From the IMG/VR virus record IMGVR_UViG_3300042406_000119, positions 1 through 20,102 of that record: a stretch of 20,102 nt of DNA. One strand, written 5' to 3'. Within the stretch, counting starts at the first letter, position 1. The number at the start of each line of letters is the position of its first letter. This document shows, piece by piece, positions 2,384-20,102 of the stretch. Below the pieces are notes generated by a model. That model searched no databases. It saw only the letters and a list, made by a program, of their open reading frames with translations, and had not been told where the DNA came from. Origin of the DNA: a virus. Position numbers and translations under genes: made by a program.

Positions 2384-3097
2384 ATGTCAATTAGTTCAAA
2401 CAGCATTCAGGGTTCGCCGTTTAGCACCAAGGGTGGAATATACATCCACAATGGAACAACCACTCAACTTTTAACTGTTGGCGCAAGTGGATTTGCACTT
2501 GCATCCAGTTCTTCGGTAACAGCAACGTCTCTTACGTACAAAAATCCTCCTGTCGGGGATTCTGTTTATTATGAAAAAATTGCATCAACCACCTTGACCA
2601 CTGTCTCTACGTCAGTGTCATTTTCGTCAATTACGAGTGGGTATAAAGATCTGTATCTTATCGTTCAGGCAAGAAATACGTCGACTGGAACAATAGGCGC
2701 AGATGCCCTAGCCGTAGACATATCATTTAACACTGATACTGCTGCATCCAATGCAAAATATTCATCTTTTGGCATAAGAATCCACAGCGCACTTAGAACA
2801 TTAGAAAACCTAACGTCACAAGATAAGATTAAAGCGTGGTCTTCAATTACAAGTGCGTCAAATACGGTTGGGACGTGGGGTATGTTGGAAATGAAAATTA
2901 ACCAATACACAAATACAGCAACAAAAGTCGGCTCGTATTTTTCACATTCCTATGCAGATAATTCAACAAATGGGGCGTCATTATTTCATTCCTTGTCGTA
3001 TTCTGGGACATTAGCAATTGACAGAATTAATTTAACGCCTTCTAACGGTGGATCTTTCACAATAGATTCTAAATTCATTTTGTATGGATCAAAATAA
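2384..3097 (+). CDS. Tail-fibre-like protein, tandem paralogue 3 of 3
   Basis: This 237-residue protein keeps the paralogue plan in more degenerate form: 'STKGGIYIHNGTTTQLLTVG' stands where the others have K-G-D-I-L...D-G...L-P-V-G-T. It continues with 'VYYEKIASTTLTTVSTSVSF', 'SSITSGYKDLYLIVQAR', and ends in 'SKFILYGSK'. Loss of Asp in KGD and of Pro in LPVG shows it is the most diverged copy at the N-terminus. Base composition is the A+T-richest of the set (for example 22 G/C in the 60 bases at 2941-3000). The role as a fibre or receptor-binding protein is inferred as for the other two copies. It ends ten bases before the next ATG, which has a good AAGGAG site. Confidence 0.66.
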   Translation: MSISSNSIQGSPFSTKGGIYIHNGTTTQLLTVGASGFALASSSSVTATSLTYKNPPVGDSVYYEKIASTTLTTVSTSVSFSSITSGYKDLYLIVQARNTSTGTIGADALAVDISFNTDTAASNAKYSSFGIRIHSALRTLENLTSQDKIKAWSSITSASNTVGTWGMLEMKINQYTNTATKVGSYFSHSYADNSTNGASLFHSLSYSGTLAIDRINLTPSNGGSFTIDSKFILYGSK

Positions 3098-3106
3098 GGA
3101 GAAAGT

Positions 3107-3340
3107 ATGTTTAAAGTAATTACGGATTGCTCAACTGGGGAAACGGTTCACATCCCACTCACAGAGGCAGAGATTGCTGAGCATAATGCTGCGGTTGCTC
3201 GTTCGATTGCAGAGCAGGAACAGCGAGAGAGAGACGAACAGGAACTTCTTGCACGAGAAGAGGAAGCCCGTGAATCAGCCCGCGCTAAGTTGGCAGCACT
3301 TGGGCTAACCGAGGCAGAAGTCGCGGCGCTCGTTAAGTAA
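3107..3340 (+). CDS. Short coiled-coil protein following the fibre genes
   Basis: This 77-residue protein opens with a small folded start, 'MFKVITDCSTGETVHIPLT', then a highly charged helix from about residue 19 to 62 rich in Glu, Arg, Ala and Gln, and ends in 'LAALGLTEAEVAALVK'. Small proteins of this plan (CSTGE-type start, charged helix, 'LGLTEEEA'-type end) commonly follow fibre genes in tailed phages. Their job is unknown; assembly or accessory roles are often guessed. The AAGGAG sequence seven bases before the ATG fixes the start. The stop overlaps the next start (TAATG at 3338-3342). No membrane segment or enzyme motif is seen. Confidence 0.65.
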   Translation: MFKVITDCSTGETVHIPLTEAEIAEHNAAVARSIAEQEQRERDEQELLAREEEARESARAKLAALGLTEAEVAALVK

Positions 3341-3822
3341 TGACCGAGCTGGCCCCCGTCCTGACTGGGTGCCACGTCTGCCGATCTCCATTTGTTGAGA
3401 CGATCAACAAGAAGATGCGAGACGGCGTGCCGGATATGAAGATCTCGGAGTGGCTTTCAGAAAACGCACAGTACATCAGCCGAATCACCCTCGGCAAACA
3501 CAAGCGTGAACACCTGACTGAGCCACACGAACGTCTTCGCCAGCAGGCCGTCAACGTGATGAAGAAGCAGCAGAAGACGATCAAGGCAACGGGCGACCTT
3601 GCTGGACTCGTTAGGGACTACGTCCACAGTGCGGTGGAGCAGGGGATGATGACACCAACGCTCGCGGAGGGGTTGCGGGCGCAGGAGATGATCGACCGCA
3701 GACAGGAGAAGGGCGCCGACCGAGAGATCACCTTGCAGCTCGCAGGGATCTTGGGCGGCACAGGCGCCGCGTATCAGGTACTAGAGGCGAGGGAGATTAA
3801 AGCAGTCGAATCGGGGGAGTAG
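3340..3822 (+). CDS. Putative terminase small subunit-like DNA-binding protein
   Basis: The 160-residue protein has an N-terminal module with C11-x2-C14 and H54-x3-H58, separated by a helix-turn-helix-like stretch ('KISEWLSENAQYISRITLG'). Cys pairs followed by an HTH and a 'KHKREHL' type end are known from many phage and plasmid DNA-binding proteins, some annotated as small terminase; the four residues could bind zinc. The rest (about 65-150) is helical and charged, with 'MKKQQKTIKATGDLAGLVRDY', fit for oligomerisation. I see no other small-terminase candidate before the large subunit at 7660, but the two are separated by a lysis block and a sugar-enzyme pair, which is unusual. The small-terminase call is therefore tentative; a transcription regulator is the alternative. 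Confidence 0.45.
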   Translation: MTELAPVLTGCHVCRSPFVETINKKMRDGVPDMKISEWLSENAQYISRITLGKHKREHLTEPHERLRQQAVNVMKKQQKTIKATGDLAGLVRDYVHSAVEQGMMTPTLAEGLRAQEMIDRRQEKGADREITLQLAGILGGTGAAYQVLEAREIKAVESGE

Positions 3823-3830
3823 GAGTATGC

Positions 3831-4928
3831 GTGCGACTGGTCCTTCTTGCAATCCTTTTCTCACTCTCTGCGGGTCCAGTACTCGCACTTGACGACACCA
3901 ACCTCTGGGATCAGCAGGTTGACTCCAACGGGACCATTACCCTAGAGGAAGGTTCCATCACGATCCAAGGATCGAATAACGCAGGCGCTGGCTATCCGTG
4001 GCAGAACACCATCACAGCAATCACGACGGACTCCTCCCTAGGAGAGACGGTCTCCTTTGATTGGTCCTTCTGGACAACGGACAGCGCCTACTTTGACAGA
4101 CCACAGGTTCTTTGGGACGATATGTGGTATGATCTTGCGAACCACGTCCAGCAGGCCAGCGGGACATCGGAGGGATACATCACCGCTGGCGGCGCCTTCG
4201 GGTTCCGTATTCTTTCACTAGACTCCTGCTGCGGCGCTGGTTTCCTTCAAGTATCCAATACGACGTGGGTCGTCGGACCAGCTCCAACCCCAACCCCAAG
4301 CCCAACACCGGAGCCTTCTGTTGATCAATCTCCAGAACCGACACCAACGCCAGAGCCTACGCCCGAACCGACGCCGACGCCAGAACCTTCTCCGACGCCT
4401 GAGCCGACTCAAGAGCCTACGCCAGAGCCAACTCCTGATCCAACTCCTGAACCGACTCCAGAACCTGAACCAACGGTAGAGCCAGAGCCGACAGATGAGC
4501 CAGAGCCGACTGCCGAACCCGAACCGTCGGAGGAACCTTCAGAGGAACCTGAGCCGACTCCTGCTCCTACTGACGAGCCTAGCCCTGATCCTGAGCCTGA
4601 GCCTACTGACGATCCTGACACCGATCTGCCTACCGTAGACGAGGTAGCAGAGGCTGTCGGAGAGGCAGTAGATGCCGCACTGGAATCAATCACAGAGGTT
4701 TTTGACAGCATCCTTGCGGTTACGGAGATCGGTAGTGACCTTGATGAAACGGAAAAAGAAGACGCGCAGCCAGTTGCAGCGGCAATTGTCGCAAGTCAAA
4801 TTGCAACTTCGGCAGCAGCATCAGCAGTTCGCTCGATGGGCGGAACGCCAAGTGGTGGCGGCGGGGGCGGTGGTGCGAGCGGTATGGACAAACCTCGCAG
4901 CAGTCAAAAGGGGAACCGACGTGTTTAA
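3831..4928 (+). CDS. Secreted protein with beta domain and long Pro/Thr/Glu stalk
   Basis: The start is GTG 3831, chosen because AGGAG lies five bases upstream and because the resulting N-terminus is a clean signal peptide: positive R2, hydrophobic core residues 3-13, and a V-L-A cleavage pattern ending at A19. The nearby ATG at 3827 is in another frame and stops early. Residues about 20-150 look like a beta-sandwich ('TVSFDWSFWTTDSAYFDRP', 'GFRILSLDSCCGAG') like those of secreted or sugar-binding proteins. Residues 152-263 are a Pro-Thr-Glu-Pro low-complexity stalk turning acidic. Then come a helical part, an Ala/Ser-rich helix ('AAAIVASQIATSAAASAV'), a glycine run and a basic end. The function is unknown. 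Placement before the holin suggests an exported lysis helper, surface protein or exclusion factor; a virion decoration is less likely given the signal peptide. Confidence 0.72.
   Translation: MRLVLLAILFSLSAGPVLALDDTNLWDQQVDSNGTITLEEGSITIQGSNNAGAGYPWQNTITAITTDSSLGETVSFDWSFWTTDSAYFDRPQVLWDDMWYDLANHVQQASGTSEGYITAGGAFGFRILSLDSCCGAGFLQVSNTTWVVGPAPTPTPSPTPEPSVDQSPEPTPTPEPTPEPTPTPEPSPTPEPTQEPTPEPTPDPTPEPTPEPEPTVEPEPTDEPEPTAEPEPSEEPSEEPEPTPAPTDEPSPDPEPEPTDDPDTDLPTVDEVAEAVGEAVDAALESITEVFDSILAVTEIGSDLDETEKEDAQPVAAAIVASQIATSAAASAVRSMGGTPSGGGGGGGASGMDKPRSSQKGNRRV
4284..4620 (+). repeat. Pro/Thr/Glu-rich coding repeat
   Basis: These bases encode an irregular run of P-T-P, P-E-P and P-T-D/E-P units (residues 152-263 of the secreted protein). 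Synonymous positions vary widely between units (CCA, CCG, CCT; ACA, ACC, ACG, ACT; GAA, GAG), so the repeat is kept at the protein level and is not a fresh product of slippage. The second half swaps Thr for acidic residues. The strand-symmetric composition also creates long meaningless open frames on the minus strand here. Confidence 0.85.
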
Positions 4929-6005: not shown

Positions 6006-6404
6006 ATGGCTAAAGAGGATTTGGAATGGTTGGTCGGAAGCGCAAAGCGCGGATTTAAGTCCGAGATCCAAATCCGCCAAAAGGGTGCCGACAAATACTC
6101 CAAGTTGGTGGAGAAGGCACGGGCTGCTGGCGGGACAGTCACGGTTGTCCCAAAGGGACAGAAGCGCACATTCTCCGTCAAGGCAACTGGCAGCGCGGCA
6201 TTCCGTGGTGGTCCAGCCCTTGGATCATCCGCCTACGAATCTTTCGTAGCGGCGGGTGGCAAGGTGAAGGGATCTGGGATTAAGTCTCAGGGGTCTCTTC
6301 CAAAGGGAGTTGCGGCAAGCAAGTTCGGGATTATGAAGCTCGGAATGTCAACCGATACACCATCCTTCAAGAAGCGCAAGAAGAAGAAGTTCGGACAGGG
6401 ATAA
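6006..6404 (+). CDS. Basic protein of unknown function
   Basis: I do not recognise this 132-residue protein. ATG 6006 is preferred to earlier in-frame codons (from 5922), which would overlap the r1t-like holin; it starts one base after the holin stop. The N-terminal third ('EDLEWLVGSAKRGFKSEIQI') is helical and charged. It is followed by a short beta-type segment ('GTVTVVPKGQKRTFSVKAT'), a Gly/Ser-rich middle, and a strongly basic C-terminus ('FKKRKKKKFGQG'), which could bind nucleic acid or a polyanion. There is no membrane segment or catalytic motif. The stop overlaps the cytidylyltransferase start by one base (TAATG), so it is co-expressed with that gene. Confidence 0.6.
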   Translation: MAKEDLEWLVGSAKRGFKSEIQIRQKGADKYSKLVEKARAAGGTVTVVPKGQKRTFSVKATGSAAFRGGPALGSSAYESFVAAGGKVKGSGIKSQGSLPKGVAASKFGIMKLGMSTDTPSFKKRKKKKFGQG

Positions 6405-6901
6405 TGTGGGTTTACGTCGGGGGGACGTTTGATCTCTTCCATTACGGACACGCTCGGTTCCTAGAGCAGTGCGCAAAGCACGGCAAGGTGATCGTGGCAC
6501 TCAACACGGACGAGTTCGCTGCTCGGTACAAGCGGCAGCCCGTCTTGACACTTGGGGAGCGGATTGAGTCGGTTCGGTCCTGCCGATGGGTAGACCAAGT
6601 AGTGGTCAACATCGGGGACGAGAACACCGGGGAAACCATCGACTCTATGAAGGACAAGAAGATCTCCTACATTGCCCACGGAGACGATTGGCAAGGAGAG
6701 TCGCTCCTGAGTCAACTCGGTATTAGTTCCGAGTGGCTCAAGGAACGAGAGATCGCAATGCTTTACTTAAAGTATACAGACAGCGTCTCCACCAGCGATA
6801 TCATTAAGAGGGTCAATGGCAACATTCACAGCGATTGTGACTGCTCATGCGGATGCAGCGGGGATGGTACGCACGGTCGACTCCCTGCTCGCTCAGAGTA
6901 G
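6404..6901 (+). CDS. TagD-like cytidylyltransferase
   Basis: A nucleotidyltransferase of the glycerol-3-phosphate cytidylyltransferase (TagD) type. Visible motifs: 'GGTFDLFHYGH' with the CTP-binding HxGH at H13-H16, 'NTDEF' (34-38), 'GDDWQGE' (93-99; TagD has GDDWEG), and the C-terminal 'SVSTSDIIKR' (127-136). The family joins CTP to a phosphorylated alcohol or sugar, giving a CDP-activated donor; in TagD this is CDP-glycerol for wall teichoic acid. The substrate here cannot be read from sequence. Two oddities stand out. The Arg of the family's RTxGISTT motif is replaced by Tyr (Y124), and the protein continues past its normal end with a Cys-rich tail (residues 138-165, 'DCDCSCGCSGDG') written entirely inside the next gene. 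The neighbouring glycosyltransferase suggests a joint sugar pathway. Confidence 0.82.
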   Translation: MWVYVGGTFDLFHYGHARFLEQCAKHGKVIVALNTDEFAARYKRQPVLTLGERIESVRSCRWVDQVVVNIGDENTGETIDSMKDKKISYIAHGDDWQGESLLSQLGISSEWLKEREIAMLYLKYTDSVSTSDIIKRVNGNIHSDCDCSCGCSGDGTHGRLPARSE

Positions 6902-7355
6902 GAAGCCCGATGAGATCATTGTCCTCGCTAGTGACATTGATCTGGAGGAAGCTCGCAAGCGGTACACTGGTGTCACCTTCTACGCAGAGCCGAACCTTGA
7001 GGACTGGGGCCACGACAAGCGGGCCAAGGGGCTTGACCTGGCGACATCTGATTACGCGGGTTGGTTCAACCACGACGACTCCTACGACCCGCACTACATC
7101 GCGGAAATGATGTGGCAAGCAGAACTTGGCAATGATGTGGTATACTGCGGGTGGTCCAAAGATTCCGCCCCGCAGTTTAGGTCGGCAAAATCCACCTCTG
7201 GTAACTACATCGTAAAAGTTGATGTTGCCCGCAAAGCTGGGTACACTGACCGCCACTACGAAGCAGACGGCACCTTCATTGACAGGATCGCCGCCGTCAC
7301 CAATTCCATCAAGTTCCTTTCTGGGACTTTGTATTTCCATAATGAGGTGAAGTAA
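6816..7355 (+). CDS. GT-A (family 2-like) glycosyltransferase
   Basis: This 179-residue protein has the order of a small GT-A fold glycosyltransferase. It begins with the nucleotide-binding strand 'FTAIVTAHADAAGMVRTVDS', then 'LLAQSRKPDEIIVLASD', as in family 2 enzymes. The metal-binding acidic pair is in 'GWFNHDDSYDP' (D87-D88), and a likely acceptor-side motif is in 'GYTDRHYEADGTFIDRI' (E149/D151), where catalytic-base acids lie in the family. It is shorter than most family 2 members but seems to keep the whole core, with no membrane anchor, so it is probably soluble. AAGAGGG just before ATG 6816 fixes the start, although it lies 86 bases inside the cytidylyltransferase gene. Donor and acceptor are unknown; a CDP-activated donor from the upstream enzyme is an attractive but unproven idea. 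Confidence 0.78.
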   Translation: MATFTAIVTAHADAAGMVRTVDSLLAQSRKPDEIIVLASDIDLEEARKRYTGVTFYAEPNLEDWGHDKRAKGLDLATSDYAGWFNHDDSYDPHYIAEMMWQAELGNDVVYCGWSKDSAPQFRSAKSTSGNYIVKVDVARKAGYTDRHYEADGTFIDRIAAVTNSIKFLSGTLYFHNEVK

Positions 7356-7663
7356 TGCCGAAGAGCGCAGCGTGGCAACGTAAAGAGGGCAAGAACCCAA
7401 AGGGTGGCTTGAACGCCAAGGGACGCGCATCTTACAAGGCACAGACTGGCGGGACGCTTAAGGCTCCTGTCAAGAGTGGGGACAACCCACGACGCGCTTC
7501 ATTCCTCGCCCGTATGGGCGGTATGCCTGGTCCAGAGAAAGACGAGAAGGGACGACCGACTCGACTCCTCCTCAGCCTGCAAGCCTGGGGGGCGAGCAGC
7601 AAGGCTGATGCAAAGAGCAAGGCAGCATCTATTAGCAGTCGCCTCAAGGCGAAGAAGGCTTGA
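7355..7663 (+). CDS. Small basic protein, DUF6321-like
   Basis: This 102-residue protein carries a pattern seen widely in small phage proteins: 'GGLNAKGRASYKAQTGG', 'LKAPVKSGDNPRRASFLARM', 'GGMPGPEKDEKGRPTRLLLS' and 'LQAWG'. I associate it with a DUF6321-type domain from memory; no function is established. It is strongly basic, with a Lys/Ala/Ser-rich end that could form a nucleic-acid-binding helix. It sits between the glycosyltransferase (TAATG overlap at 7353-7357) and the large terminase, whose TTG start overlaps its stop, so it is translated with the packaging genes. A DNA- or virion-associated role would fit but is only inference. Confidence 0.68.
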   Translation: MPKSAAWQRKEGKNPKGGLNAKGRASYKAQTGGTLKAPVKSGDNPRRASFLARMGGMPGPEKDEKGRPTRLLLSLQAWGASSKADAKSKAASISSRLKAKKA

Positions 7664-9159
7664 AGCCGCTCAGTAACGATGTTGCTCTCGACCTCGCTCG
7701 CGGCAGGTCCGACATTGAATTCTTCGCACTCCGATGGCTCGGCATTCAGGGAAACCCAGGTCAGGTAAACTGGTGGAAGGCGTGCAGTGAAAGAGACGAA
7801 ACGGGCTACCGCCCGCGCTACATCACGACGGTCGTCTCAGCTGGGAACCGTGCAGGAAAGACTCTTGCTATGGCTGTTGTGTGTCTCCATCACGCGCTAT
7901 ACAAACTAGGGACAGCCAACCCAGACCCCAACGATCCAGAGTCCGCAGTCCGCTGGTCAAACGCTCCATACGAGTGGTACCACGTAGGCATCCAGCAGGA
8001 GACCGCAGAGTTGGTCTTCCGAGAGGTAGAGGCAATCCTCGGCGGCAACCATCCGGCACAGAAGAGCAGGGGTTGCCCGCTCTCCAAGGAACTAGGCAAG
8101 ATCATTGACACCTCCAAGAAGTATCGCGGAGAGTATCCTTGGATCAAGTTCCACCCCGTGGTTGGTGGGGCCAGCATCCACTTCCGCACCACACAGGATC
8201 GCGCCAAGGCACTCCTCGGCAAGGATATGAACGGCATCTCCTTTGACGAAGCAGCCTTTGAGCCGCACCTCGTGATGATCTACCAAGAGGTCTTGAACCT
8301 CCGCCGACTCTCCACTGGTGGTCCGCTCCACTTCATCGGGACACCAAGCGAGGGCATCAACGATTACTCCGAACTCTGGGAGAAGGGCAACCCAGAGAAC
8401 CCAGCGAGGGACGACAAGTTCACTTCCTTCCGACTCTCCACCCGCGACAACATCGGATACGGGTTGACGCAGGAGAACTTTGACGATGTGGTACGCCAAC
8501 AGGCTCCCTACCTAGTCCCACAGAACATTGATGGATACTTCATCGAGGCGCGAGACGCCTTCTTCTGGAGCCAATCCATCCTCGCGTCCTACAAGACGCT
8601 AGACGCAGAGATCTCACCAGAGCGGAATCACCGCTATGTGCAGGGCGTAGACCCAGGAATCTCGCACGACGCGACCTGGGCGATCACACTGGACATCACC
8701 GACCGCAGGAAGATCCGTGGCGTGCGCATCCGAAAGCGCAGCGGCAAGCAGAGTATCTCCGCAGTTGTTAATATGGTGAGAGAGGGACACCTCCTCTACA
8801 GCCAAGACGGCGCCTTCTGCACCACCATCGTGGACTCTACTGGTCTCGGTGGCAGGCTCTTCCAGCAGGAGTTCTCAATGATCCGCCCGCTCCGAGGCTT
8901 TGACTTCGGTGGCACCAAGGCGAAGAAGGTGGAACTCCTGAACGACTTGAAGGCCGTGATTGACAAAGGTCAAGTCGAGTTCCCCATTGGTGGTCCTTGG
9001 GACGAGCTGAAGCGGCAACTCCTCATCTATCGACTTGACGATAAGAAACTTGAACAAGACGCCGTGATGGCACTAGCAATCGCCGTGCGACACGCGCTGC
9101 GTAATCCTGAGAAGGGCGTGGAGAATCCCACCTTCACCTATTTTGGAGTGAGTGATTAA
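7660..9159 (+). CDS. terL: Terminase large subunit
   Basis: This is the 499-residue packaging motor. The ATPase half has Walker A 'SAGNRAGKT' (residues 60-68) and Walker B with the catalytic acid, 'ISFDEAA' (D196-E197). The nuclease half has the three acidic positions of the RNase H-like fold: 'GVDPG' (D331), 'IVDSTG' (D392) and 'LEQDAVMAL' (D467). The motor pumps DNA into the prohead through the portal and cuts concatemers. The start is TTG 7660: the frame is closed by a stop at 7633-7635, no other start codon lies between, and TTG overlaps the upstream TGA. The AAGG before it is very close, so initiation may rely on coupling to the upstream gene. Length is normal. The portal gene follows with a one-base overlap. 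Confidence 0.96.
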   Translation: MKPLSNDVALDLARGRSDIEFFALRWLGIQGNPGQVNWWKACSERDETGYRPRYITTVVSAGNRAGKTLAMAVVCLHHALYKLGTANPDPNDPESAVRWSNAPYEWYHVGIQQETAELVFREVEAILGGNHPAQKSRGCPLSKELGKIIDTSKKYRGEYPWIKFHPVVGGASIHFRTTQDRAKALLGKDMNGISFDEAAFEPHLVMIYQEVLNLRRLSTGGPLHFIGTPSEGINDYSELWEKGNPENPARDDKFTSFRLSTRDNIGYGLTQENFDDVVRQQAPYLVPQNIDGYFIEARDAFFWSQSILASYKTLDAEISPERNHRYVQGVDPGISHDATWAITLDITDRRKIRGVRIRKRSGKQSISAVVNMVREGHLLYSQDGAFCTTIVDSTGLGGRLFQQEFSMIRPLRGFDFGGTKAKKVELLNDLKAVIDKGQVEFPIGGPWDELKRQLLIYRLDDKKLEQDAVMALAIAVRHALRNPEKGVENPTFTYFGVSD

Positions 9160-18776: not shown

Positions 18777-19748
18777 ATGGCTACCACAACTACCAGCACG
18801 ACGAACTTTTCTGATCTAGTCACGCAGCTTGTTTCTGCGCGGGCTGAAGAGGAATTGCGAGCACGTGCTGTTCACGCGATGCCAGGGATGTACGTCCCTG
18901 CTCGCTTCATCAAGGGTACGAACACCCTTCGCTACGCTCGTTATGCTGACCTCGCGGTTAGCACGACGGTGCTGACGGAAGGCACCGCCCCAACGGACGA
19001 TGCCCTCACGATTTCATCCGAGTTCTTCACCGCTGCGCAGTACGGCGCGACGGTTGCGGTCTCGGACCTCGCCAACCTTGACTCGCCACACGACCTCATC
19101 AGCATCGCTGCTGAGCGTGTTGCTTACAAGGCTGTTCGATCAATGGACCACCTCGTCCGCGACGAGATCTTTGGTTCGGCACTCACCAGCGCCGTCTTCG
19201 GCGCCACGGGTGCAACCACGCTGACGCAGAACACTGCCAACTCGGCAGTCGCTGCGGCGGGCCTCCTTTCAGGAGCGTTCGTTAAGCAGATGGTCGCTCG
19301 CCTCAAGGGCAGCAACGTTCCTCAGTTCGCTGACGGCACGTACCGCTGCATCATCCACCCTGCGCAGGAGTATGACCTCGTGTCAGACACCAGCGTAAAC
19401 GGCTGGATCGAGTCGCGCAAGTATGTGGACAACACCAACCTGCTCACGGGCGAGATTGGTATGTTCGCAGGCGTGCGCTTCATCGTGTCCTCGGACGCCA
19501 AGGTCTACGCGACCGCTGGTGCTTCGAGCGGCAACGTGTACAACGCTCTGTTCCTCGGACCAGACGCTTACACGATTGGTGACTCGCAGACACTCCAGAG
19601 CTACTTCGTGGCTCCGGGTGGCGATCACTCCGACCCACTCGCCCAGAAGGCGTTGGTCGGCTACAAGATGCGCTTCGGCACCCTCCTCCTCGACGAGGCT
19701 GGCGCTCGCTATCGCATCCTGAAGACGCAGGCCACGGTCTCTGTCTAA
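18777..19748 (+). CDS. Major capsid protein, N4-gp56 family
   Basis: This 323-residue protein has the marks of the N4-gp56 major capsid family (HK97 fold). An N-terminal helix ('LVSARAEEELRARAVHAMPG') is followed by 'RFIKGTNTLRYARYADL', the family core 'VLTEGTAP' (residues 65-72), 'SSEFFTAAQYGATVAVSDLA', and the long helix 'RVAYKAVRSMDHLVRDEIFG'. Later come 'YRCIIHPAQEYDLVSD', 'GEIGMFAGVRFIVSSDAKVY' and 'GYKMRFGTLLLDEAGARYRI'. It builds the icosahedral shell. AAGGAG lies nine bases before the ATG. Codon choice is the most G+C-rich and regular in the window (39 G/C in the 60 bases at 19021-19080), as expected for the most highly made protein. A strong hairpin stands 20 bases after its stop. 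Confidence 0.94.
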   Translation: MATTTTSTTNFSDLVTQLVSARAEEELRARAVHAMPGMYVPARFIKGTNTLRYARYADLAVSTTVLTEGTAPTDDALTISSEFFTAAQYGATVAVSDLANLDSPHDLISIAAERVAYKAVRSMDHLVRDEIFGSALTSAVFGATGATTLTQNTANSAVAAAGLLSGAFVKQMVARLKGSNVPQFADGTYRCIIHPAQEYDLVSDTSVNGWIESRKYVDNTNLLTGEIGMFAGVRFIVSSDAKVYATAGASSGNVYNALFLGPDAYTIGDSQTLQSYFVAPGGDHSDPLAQKALVGYKMRFGTLLLDEAGARYRILKTQATVSV

Positions 19749-19916: not shown

Positions 19917-20102
19917 ATGCACGTACTTGTCTGGGGGACTGCTGAACAGGGTCCCTGCGCCTACTTCCGTGGGCATATGTTTGACGAAGAGTGGAAGAAG
20001 ATGGGCATCGAAGTCCGTCACATTGACAAAGTCAACTTCATCGCCAAGGATGGCGCACAAGGTCTCAGTCAAGCGGAGGCAATGGCAAAGGGTCTGCTCT
20101 CG
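19917..20102 (+). CDS. Putative glycosyltransferase (GT4-like), N-terminal part
   Basis: The gene runs off the right edge; 62 codons are visible. It starts 'MHVLVWGTAEQGPCAYFRGH', a first strand and Gly-rich turn followed by G-P-C-x-Y-x-R. I associate this start with GT-B glycosyltransferases of the family 4 type in phage and environmental genomes, though 62 residues are too few for certainty. The frame is open upstream as far as 19809, and GTG 19851 is a possible earlier start. I prefer ATG 19917 because GGGAGGGA lies just before it and because the protein then begins at the first strand. It is separated from the capsid gene by a hairpin and a leader, so it may be its own transcription unit. 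If correct it is the second glycosyltransferase in the window. Confidence 0.5.
   Translation, partial: MHVLVWGTAEQGPCAYFRGHMFDEEWKKMGIEVRHIDKVNFIAKDGAQGLSQAEAMAKGLLS

Follow-up and report, generated by a model that had tools for sequence, protein, structure and literature searches.

A few actinobacterial phages are known to glycosylate their virions. In mycobacteriophages, according to two papers that cite Freeman 2023 (PMC12363180 and PMC12619734), capsid and tail-tube proteins are glycosylated by the phages' own glycosyltransferases, such as Che8 gp110 and Corndog gp38, and no dedicated nucleotidyltransferase is described there. A nucleotidyltransferase and a glycosyltransferase are thought to be used together by RB69 and Thanatos for cytosine pentosylation (PMC12838424), while Streptomyces phages of the Stanwilliamsviridae and Arthrobacter phage Mimi carry GT-GT-nucleotidyltransferase clusters, for whose function we found no description in the literature.

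Here, we analyzed a 20,102-base viral record (IMGVR_UViG_3300042406_000119, positions 1–20,102; the window), in which a cytidylyltransferase-like nucleotidyltransferase (CT) is coupled to a small glycosyltransferase (GT-A). Like the mycobacteriophage systems, this locus provides a phage-encoded glycosyltransferase, but here the nucleotidyltransferase is inseparable from the transferase, and within the window lineage the transferase is exchanged as a cassette. The Stanwilliamsviridae and Mimi clusters come closer in having a CT (43–45% identical) beside small glycosyltransferases, although these belong to other families, stand in the reverse gene order, and are not beside capsid genes. RB69 and Thanatos differ in their DNA target, in using a UDP-sugar pyrophosphorylase instead of this CT family, and in the presence of a base-priming enzyme. 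The pair is a variant of phage-encoded glycosylation and not a new category; it is real, conserved, coupled, and actively exchanged. The original prediction knew of no described system with exactly this set; likewise, none of the papers that our literature search turned up described such a CT-GT pair for a phage, but the set is not unique, given the CT genes beside other small glycosyltransferases in Streptomyces and Arthrobacter phages.

Gene layout and protein families

The CT, GT-A, DUF6321, TerL, major head, and GT-B genes all lie on the plus strand. The CT gene (6404..6901; 165 aa; PF01467, 2.2e-21) overlaps the GT-A gene (6816..7355; 179 aa; GT2 family, our "type A") by 86 bp (6816..6901), which are read in both of two different frames. 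The DUF6321 gene (7355..7663; PF19846, 3.1e-25), the terminase large subunit gene, TerL (7660..9159; phrog_2, 1.7e-17), and a portal gene follow downstream, lysis-like genes are among the neighbors of the pair, and the major head protein is encoded at 18777..19748 (phrog_1357, 6.8e-45), in agreement with the late region originally proposed. Directly after the head gene comes the 5' end of a second glycosyltransferase gene, GT-B (19917..20102), cut by the end of the window. Searches of cultured phages with the GT-A and terminase proteins returned no match, so by these two proteins the lineage has no cultured relative; the pair-carrying phages form an uncultured, mostly freshwater group.

Two other features were observed upstream. 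Three consecutive proteins (943–1638, 1641–2375, and 2384–3097) have in common an N-terminal KGDI...DG...VG-like motif, diverge after it, and resemble a duplicated set of variable appendage or adhesin genes. The gene for a small protein with a CHVC motif (3340–3822) varies in position: it precedes the stalk gene in certain relatives and stands directly upstream of the CT in others (compared in, e.g., L013, L018, and L045). Its product is possibly a small terminase or a regulator.

The CT carries the motifs read at the outset, namely HYGH (residues 13–16), GDDWQGE (93–99), and STSDII (129–134), and both histidines of the HxGH motif are invariant in the lineage alignment. Its catalytic domain (residues 1–138) is under purifying selection (dN ~0.16–0.20 versus dS ~1.1–2.2 over residues 1–136), as is GT-A (dN/dS ~0.05–0.24), so neither is a chance open reading frame. 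The last ~27 CT codons are overprinted on the GT gene and encode a Cys-rich tail (residues ~139–165) that is disordered in the model and changes whenever the GT changes. A metal site in this tail was considered and rejected because of the overprinted GT start and the low model confidence there.

In fold the CT (model pLDDT 83) is nearest to the TagD structures 2b7l and 1coz, followed by choline-phosphate, Fom1, and ethanolamine-phosphate cytidylyltransferases, with HldC more distant (5xf2 at rank 49 of the fold search). It also shares HxGH, GDDW, and, in the C-terminal motif, the ST with TagD/TarD, the CTP:glycerol-3-phosphate cytidylyltransferases, but it scores 63.4 bits against NCBIfam TIGR01518 (TagD; equivalog cut-off 165.4), and the RTxGISTT motif (RTEGISTT) reads YTDSVSTS. 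The position of Arg113, which is essential for catalysis in TagD (PMC8262930), is occupied by Tyr124, invariant among the lineage members aligned; Arg is kept in this column in the Streptomyces and Arthrobacter phage relatives. The phosphate-binding pair Lys44/Lys46 of TagD falls at RYKR, with one invariant Lys43 and Arg44, in an alignment that may be off by one. A segment inserted after GDDW (Q-[LM]...[WF]-L) is common to the CT and its phage relatives and absent from TagD. The CT is therefore TagD-like in fold, not a TagD. Since the catalytic Arg is missing, CTP is not assured as its nucleotide, but it is the likely one by kinship.

The HldE C-terminal domain and HldC, heptose-1-phosphate adenylyltransferases, are alike in superfamily and in the PHROG name (phrog_7878), but the CT reaches 55.2 bits against TIGR02199 (HldE; cut-off 181.5), no kinase family was found among the matches of the 38 proteins scanned for families in G002, a near-complete relative, and no heptose-pathway partner was recognized. 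Support was lacking for naming the enzyme a TagD or its product a CDP compound, as had been suggested. As a contrast, the marine virus AG-345-O18 has open reading frames (L158, 6037–8597) read as an HldE C-domain, an HldE N-domain, and an HldD-like epimerase, which suggests a phage ADP-heptose pathway distinct from the window CT. In another relative (G044, 32710–33171), the CT profile match crosses two in-frame TGA codons, which may mark the tail or overlap region and not a broken gene.

GT-A matches PF00535 (1.7e-10; 41.5 bits, above the gathering score of 23.3) and has an acidic, metal-binding-type N-H-D-D motif, with FNHDDSY invariant in the alignment, as well as a HYEADGTF motif. While a PDB sequence search with GT-A matched nothing, the fold search with its model (pLDDT 82; Foldseek) placed it nearest to the fucosyltransferase WrtF, SpsA, and TarP (E ~1e-10). 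By its model, GT-A thus resembles nucleotide-sugar transferases, the GT-A type to which all three belong, and to our knowledge none of these three is a TagF-type polyol-phosphate transferase, the TagD/TarD partner from which GT-A differs.

CT and GT-A are gained and lost as a unit

The coupling of the two genes is well supported. A GT-A-like protein is encoded by the next gene in all 80 CT-selected viral loci, with DUF6321 and TerL then following in nearly all; the window type, type A, accounts for 60 of these loci, and type B, which has weak PF00535 matches, for the other 20. Conversely, the CT is present in every GT-selected locus having sequence to the left. As both sets are conditioned on their query, we also anchored the comparison on TerL, independently of either gene, in the 65 loci whose upstream sequence extends for 1.4 kb or more. 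Both genes were present in 57 (41 type A and 16 type B) and neither in 8, where a holin-like gene is followed directly by DUF6321. Not one of the 65 had a single gene alone, the finding that was to have counted against the predicted pair; its direct coupling is borne out by the 86-bp overlap and by this joint presence and absence. An apparent occurrence of both GT types in 13 loci was rejected as weak cross-hits from the overprinted region.

The two GT types are unrelated in sequence, and type B replaces type A in about a quarter of the relatives. In pairs of phages with different types, the flanks are near-identical up to the point where the GT begins and again from where it ends, so that the CT/GT overlap forms the left border of the exchanged cassette and the start of the DUF6321 gene the right one. 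Nucleotide identity before and after the GT is 97.5% and 98.9% for L071/L013, 97.5% and 97.8% for L069/L013, 95.6–96.5% and 99.4% for L005/L002, 92% and 95% for L056/L029, and 95% and 93% for L042/L007. The exchange occurred in several phage backgrounds, and this repetition argues for selection on the attached group or the place of attachment.

CT relatives and the GT-B module

An alignment-based search retrieved at least 576 viral CT relatives. The best 80 of these, together with the contig L174, come mainly from a second siphophage lineage, in which the order major head protein, GT-B, GT-A, CT, and head-tail adaptor was found in 45 of the 52 loci long enough to judge, and the major head protein and GT-B lie upstream in 51 of the same 52. 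In the Streptomyces phages Wofford and Blueeyedbeauty and in Arthrobacter phage Mimi, the CT relatives adjoin small glycosyltransferases in the order GT-GT-CT, and these transferases belong to sequence families other than that of GT-A. Cellular relatives were found as well: in bacterial genome bins, a GT2 gene overlaps the CT in Gottesmanbacteria and the CT lies inside a surface-type cluster in Opitutales. The CT genes of the cellular contigs L173 and L176 lie in surface-polysaccharide-like clusters; L172 and L174 look like phage contigs. Partial matches (L177–L188) were left out of this neighborhood comparison. Various GT families, in either gene order, are thus joined to the CT family across several lineages.

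The second glycosyltransferase, which was expected to start at 19917, is indeed a gene of the phage. The 62 residues of GT-B in the window are 55–95% identical to the frames of relatives, mostly of ~430 aa, in 16 of 20 records, and the full-length relatives match PF13524 and the glycosyltransferase family phrog_7162. The window is too short to contain the genes that accompany GT-B in long relatives: a RmlC-like 3,5-epimerase, a RmlD-like reductase, and an epimerase of the SDR family occur in all 12 long pair-carrying records of the window lineage. A dedicated 4,6-dehydratase was not recognized in these long records, and the SSASVYG motif of their SDR, as read from the sequence, is of the epimerase type, so the starting point may be the product of a host dehydratase. 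In the relative G004 (L163, 13188–13469), a small HAD phosphatase-like gene with a weak EcbF/BcbF capsule-phosphatase match shares an operon with the RmlD-like and epimerase genes; it was not seen in G002.

The second glycosyltransferase had also been expected to act together with the pair, but loss of CT and GT-A leaves GT-B and the Rml-like set in place. G036 (41 kb) lacks both and keeps RmlC, RmlD, the second SDR, and GT-B, and a RmlC family protein is absent from 11 second-lineage records and from Wofford, Mimi, and Blueeyedbeauty, all of which have the CT. GT-B and the Rml-like enzymes therefore form a separate module, in which the RmlC/RmlD/epimerase set perhaps feeds GT-B.

Possible targets of the pair

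The reading that we favor, with about an even chance of being right, is that CT and GT-A form a two-gene virion glycosylation module that activates its own precursor and whose transferase can be exchanged. The CT would join a nucleotide, in all likelihood CTP, to a small phosphorylated compound (a sugar-1-phosphate or a polyol phosphate). GT-A would then transfer the activated group, or a sugar depending on that group, to a phage structural protein made concurrently from the late operon. Exchange of the GT-A cassette would alter what is attached, or where, in an otherwise constant phage. A further deoxysugar-type glycan would be added by the separate core module, which comprises GT-B, encoded after the capsid gene, and the RmlC-, RmlD-, and epimerase-like enzymes.

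Three points lead us to infer a virion target: GT-B in both lineages, and the whole set in the second, is located by the capsid gene; the proteins scanned showed no clear lipid-carrier partner; and phage-encoded glycosylation of capsids and tails is established in mycobacteriophages (PMC12363180, PMC12619734). Mass spectrometry has detected a cytidylyltransferase among the structural proteins of cyanophage S-SZBM1 (PMC9146016), with no kinship to the window CT implied. Against this reading stand the position of the window-lineage pair, between lysis and terminase genes and away from the capsid gene, and the fact that no gene making the CT substrate was recognized next to the pair. The major head protein is a candidate target: it starts MATTTTSTTNF (18777–18810), with a Thr/Ser-rich N-terminus kept in relatives that could, speculatively, be the glycosylation site. 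The protein encoded at 3831–4928, which is secreted and has a long stalk of Pro/Thr/Glu repeats, was named earlier among the potential targets; it cannot be the only one, as four relatives without room for the stalk gene (L016, L017, L045, and L046) keep the pair.

A serious rival, possible in our view though clearly on the unlikely side, is that late in infection the pair modifies a glycan of the cell wall or envelope and thereby masks the receptor. This would keep progeny from re-adsorbing to debris and exclude sister phages, and GT swaps would track host-glycan diversity. The surface-polysaccharide-like clusters around the CT of L173 and L176 fit such a target too, as the CT homologs of cellular contigs accompany GT2, sulfotransferase-like, and other polysaccharide-type genes. 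The GT-A model is like polysaccharide and teichoic-acid transferases (WrtF and TarP), the pair adjoins lysis genes, and temperate phages are known to use glycan-based exclusion (PMC11990801). However, the enzymes are soluble, and the proteins scanned included no evident flippase or lipid-carrier partner, with a single weak Polysacc_synt_C match as the exception. In addition, capsid and adaptor genes flank the set in the second lineage.

The co-occurrence of the three Rml-type enzymes with the pair in all 12 long records, and the weak resemblance of the epimerase to a heptose epimerase, would suit a single pathway, in which a CT-activated sugar-1-phosphate is remodeled by the RmlC-, RmlD-, and epimerase-like enzymes and then transferred by GT-A and GT-B. 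This is improbable and largely rejected on the CT-less genomes, where the Rml-like genes and GT-B remain, and the CT also occurs where RmlC does not. Modification of phage DNA, with the group placed on bases against restriction, has the precedent of RB69 and Thanatos but is very unlikely here, as the family matches of 38 G002 proteins include no hydroxymethylase, thymidylate synthase homolog, or similar base-priming enzyme, and CT and GT-A lie in the late and not the replication region. The least credible reading is a true TagD/TarD, an auxiliary metabolic gene making CDP-glycerol for wall teichoic acid, which would accord with the nearest solved folds and with the annotation of similar genes in roseophage and cyanophage papers that call the role unclear (PMC6918029, PMC9146016), but which is contradicted by the score, the invariant Tyr, the insertion after GDDW, and the nucleotide-sugar type of the partner.

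The virion glycosylation idea is open to testing now, as cultured Streptomyces and Arthrobacter phages carry the CT family beside glycosyltransferases. In a broader and rather unlikely form, the pair would represent a widespread viral "coat-typing" in several unrelated lineages, each with its own activating enzyme and an exchangeable transferase, where a single-gene swap changes the displayed group and the unusual nucleotide-activated compound is not known from any virion. Our results suggest that many uncultured phages encode a sugar-activation step themselves and exchange the transferase by cassette, which may be the phage equivalent of serotype switching.
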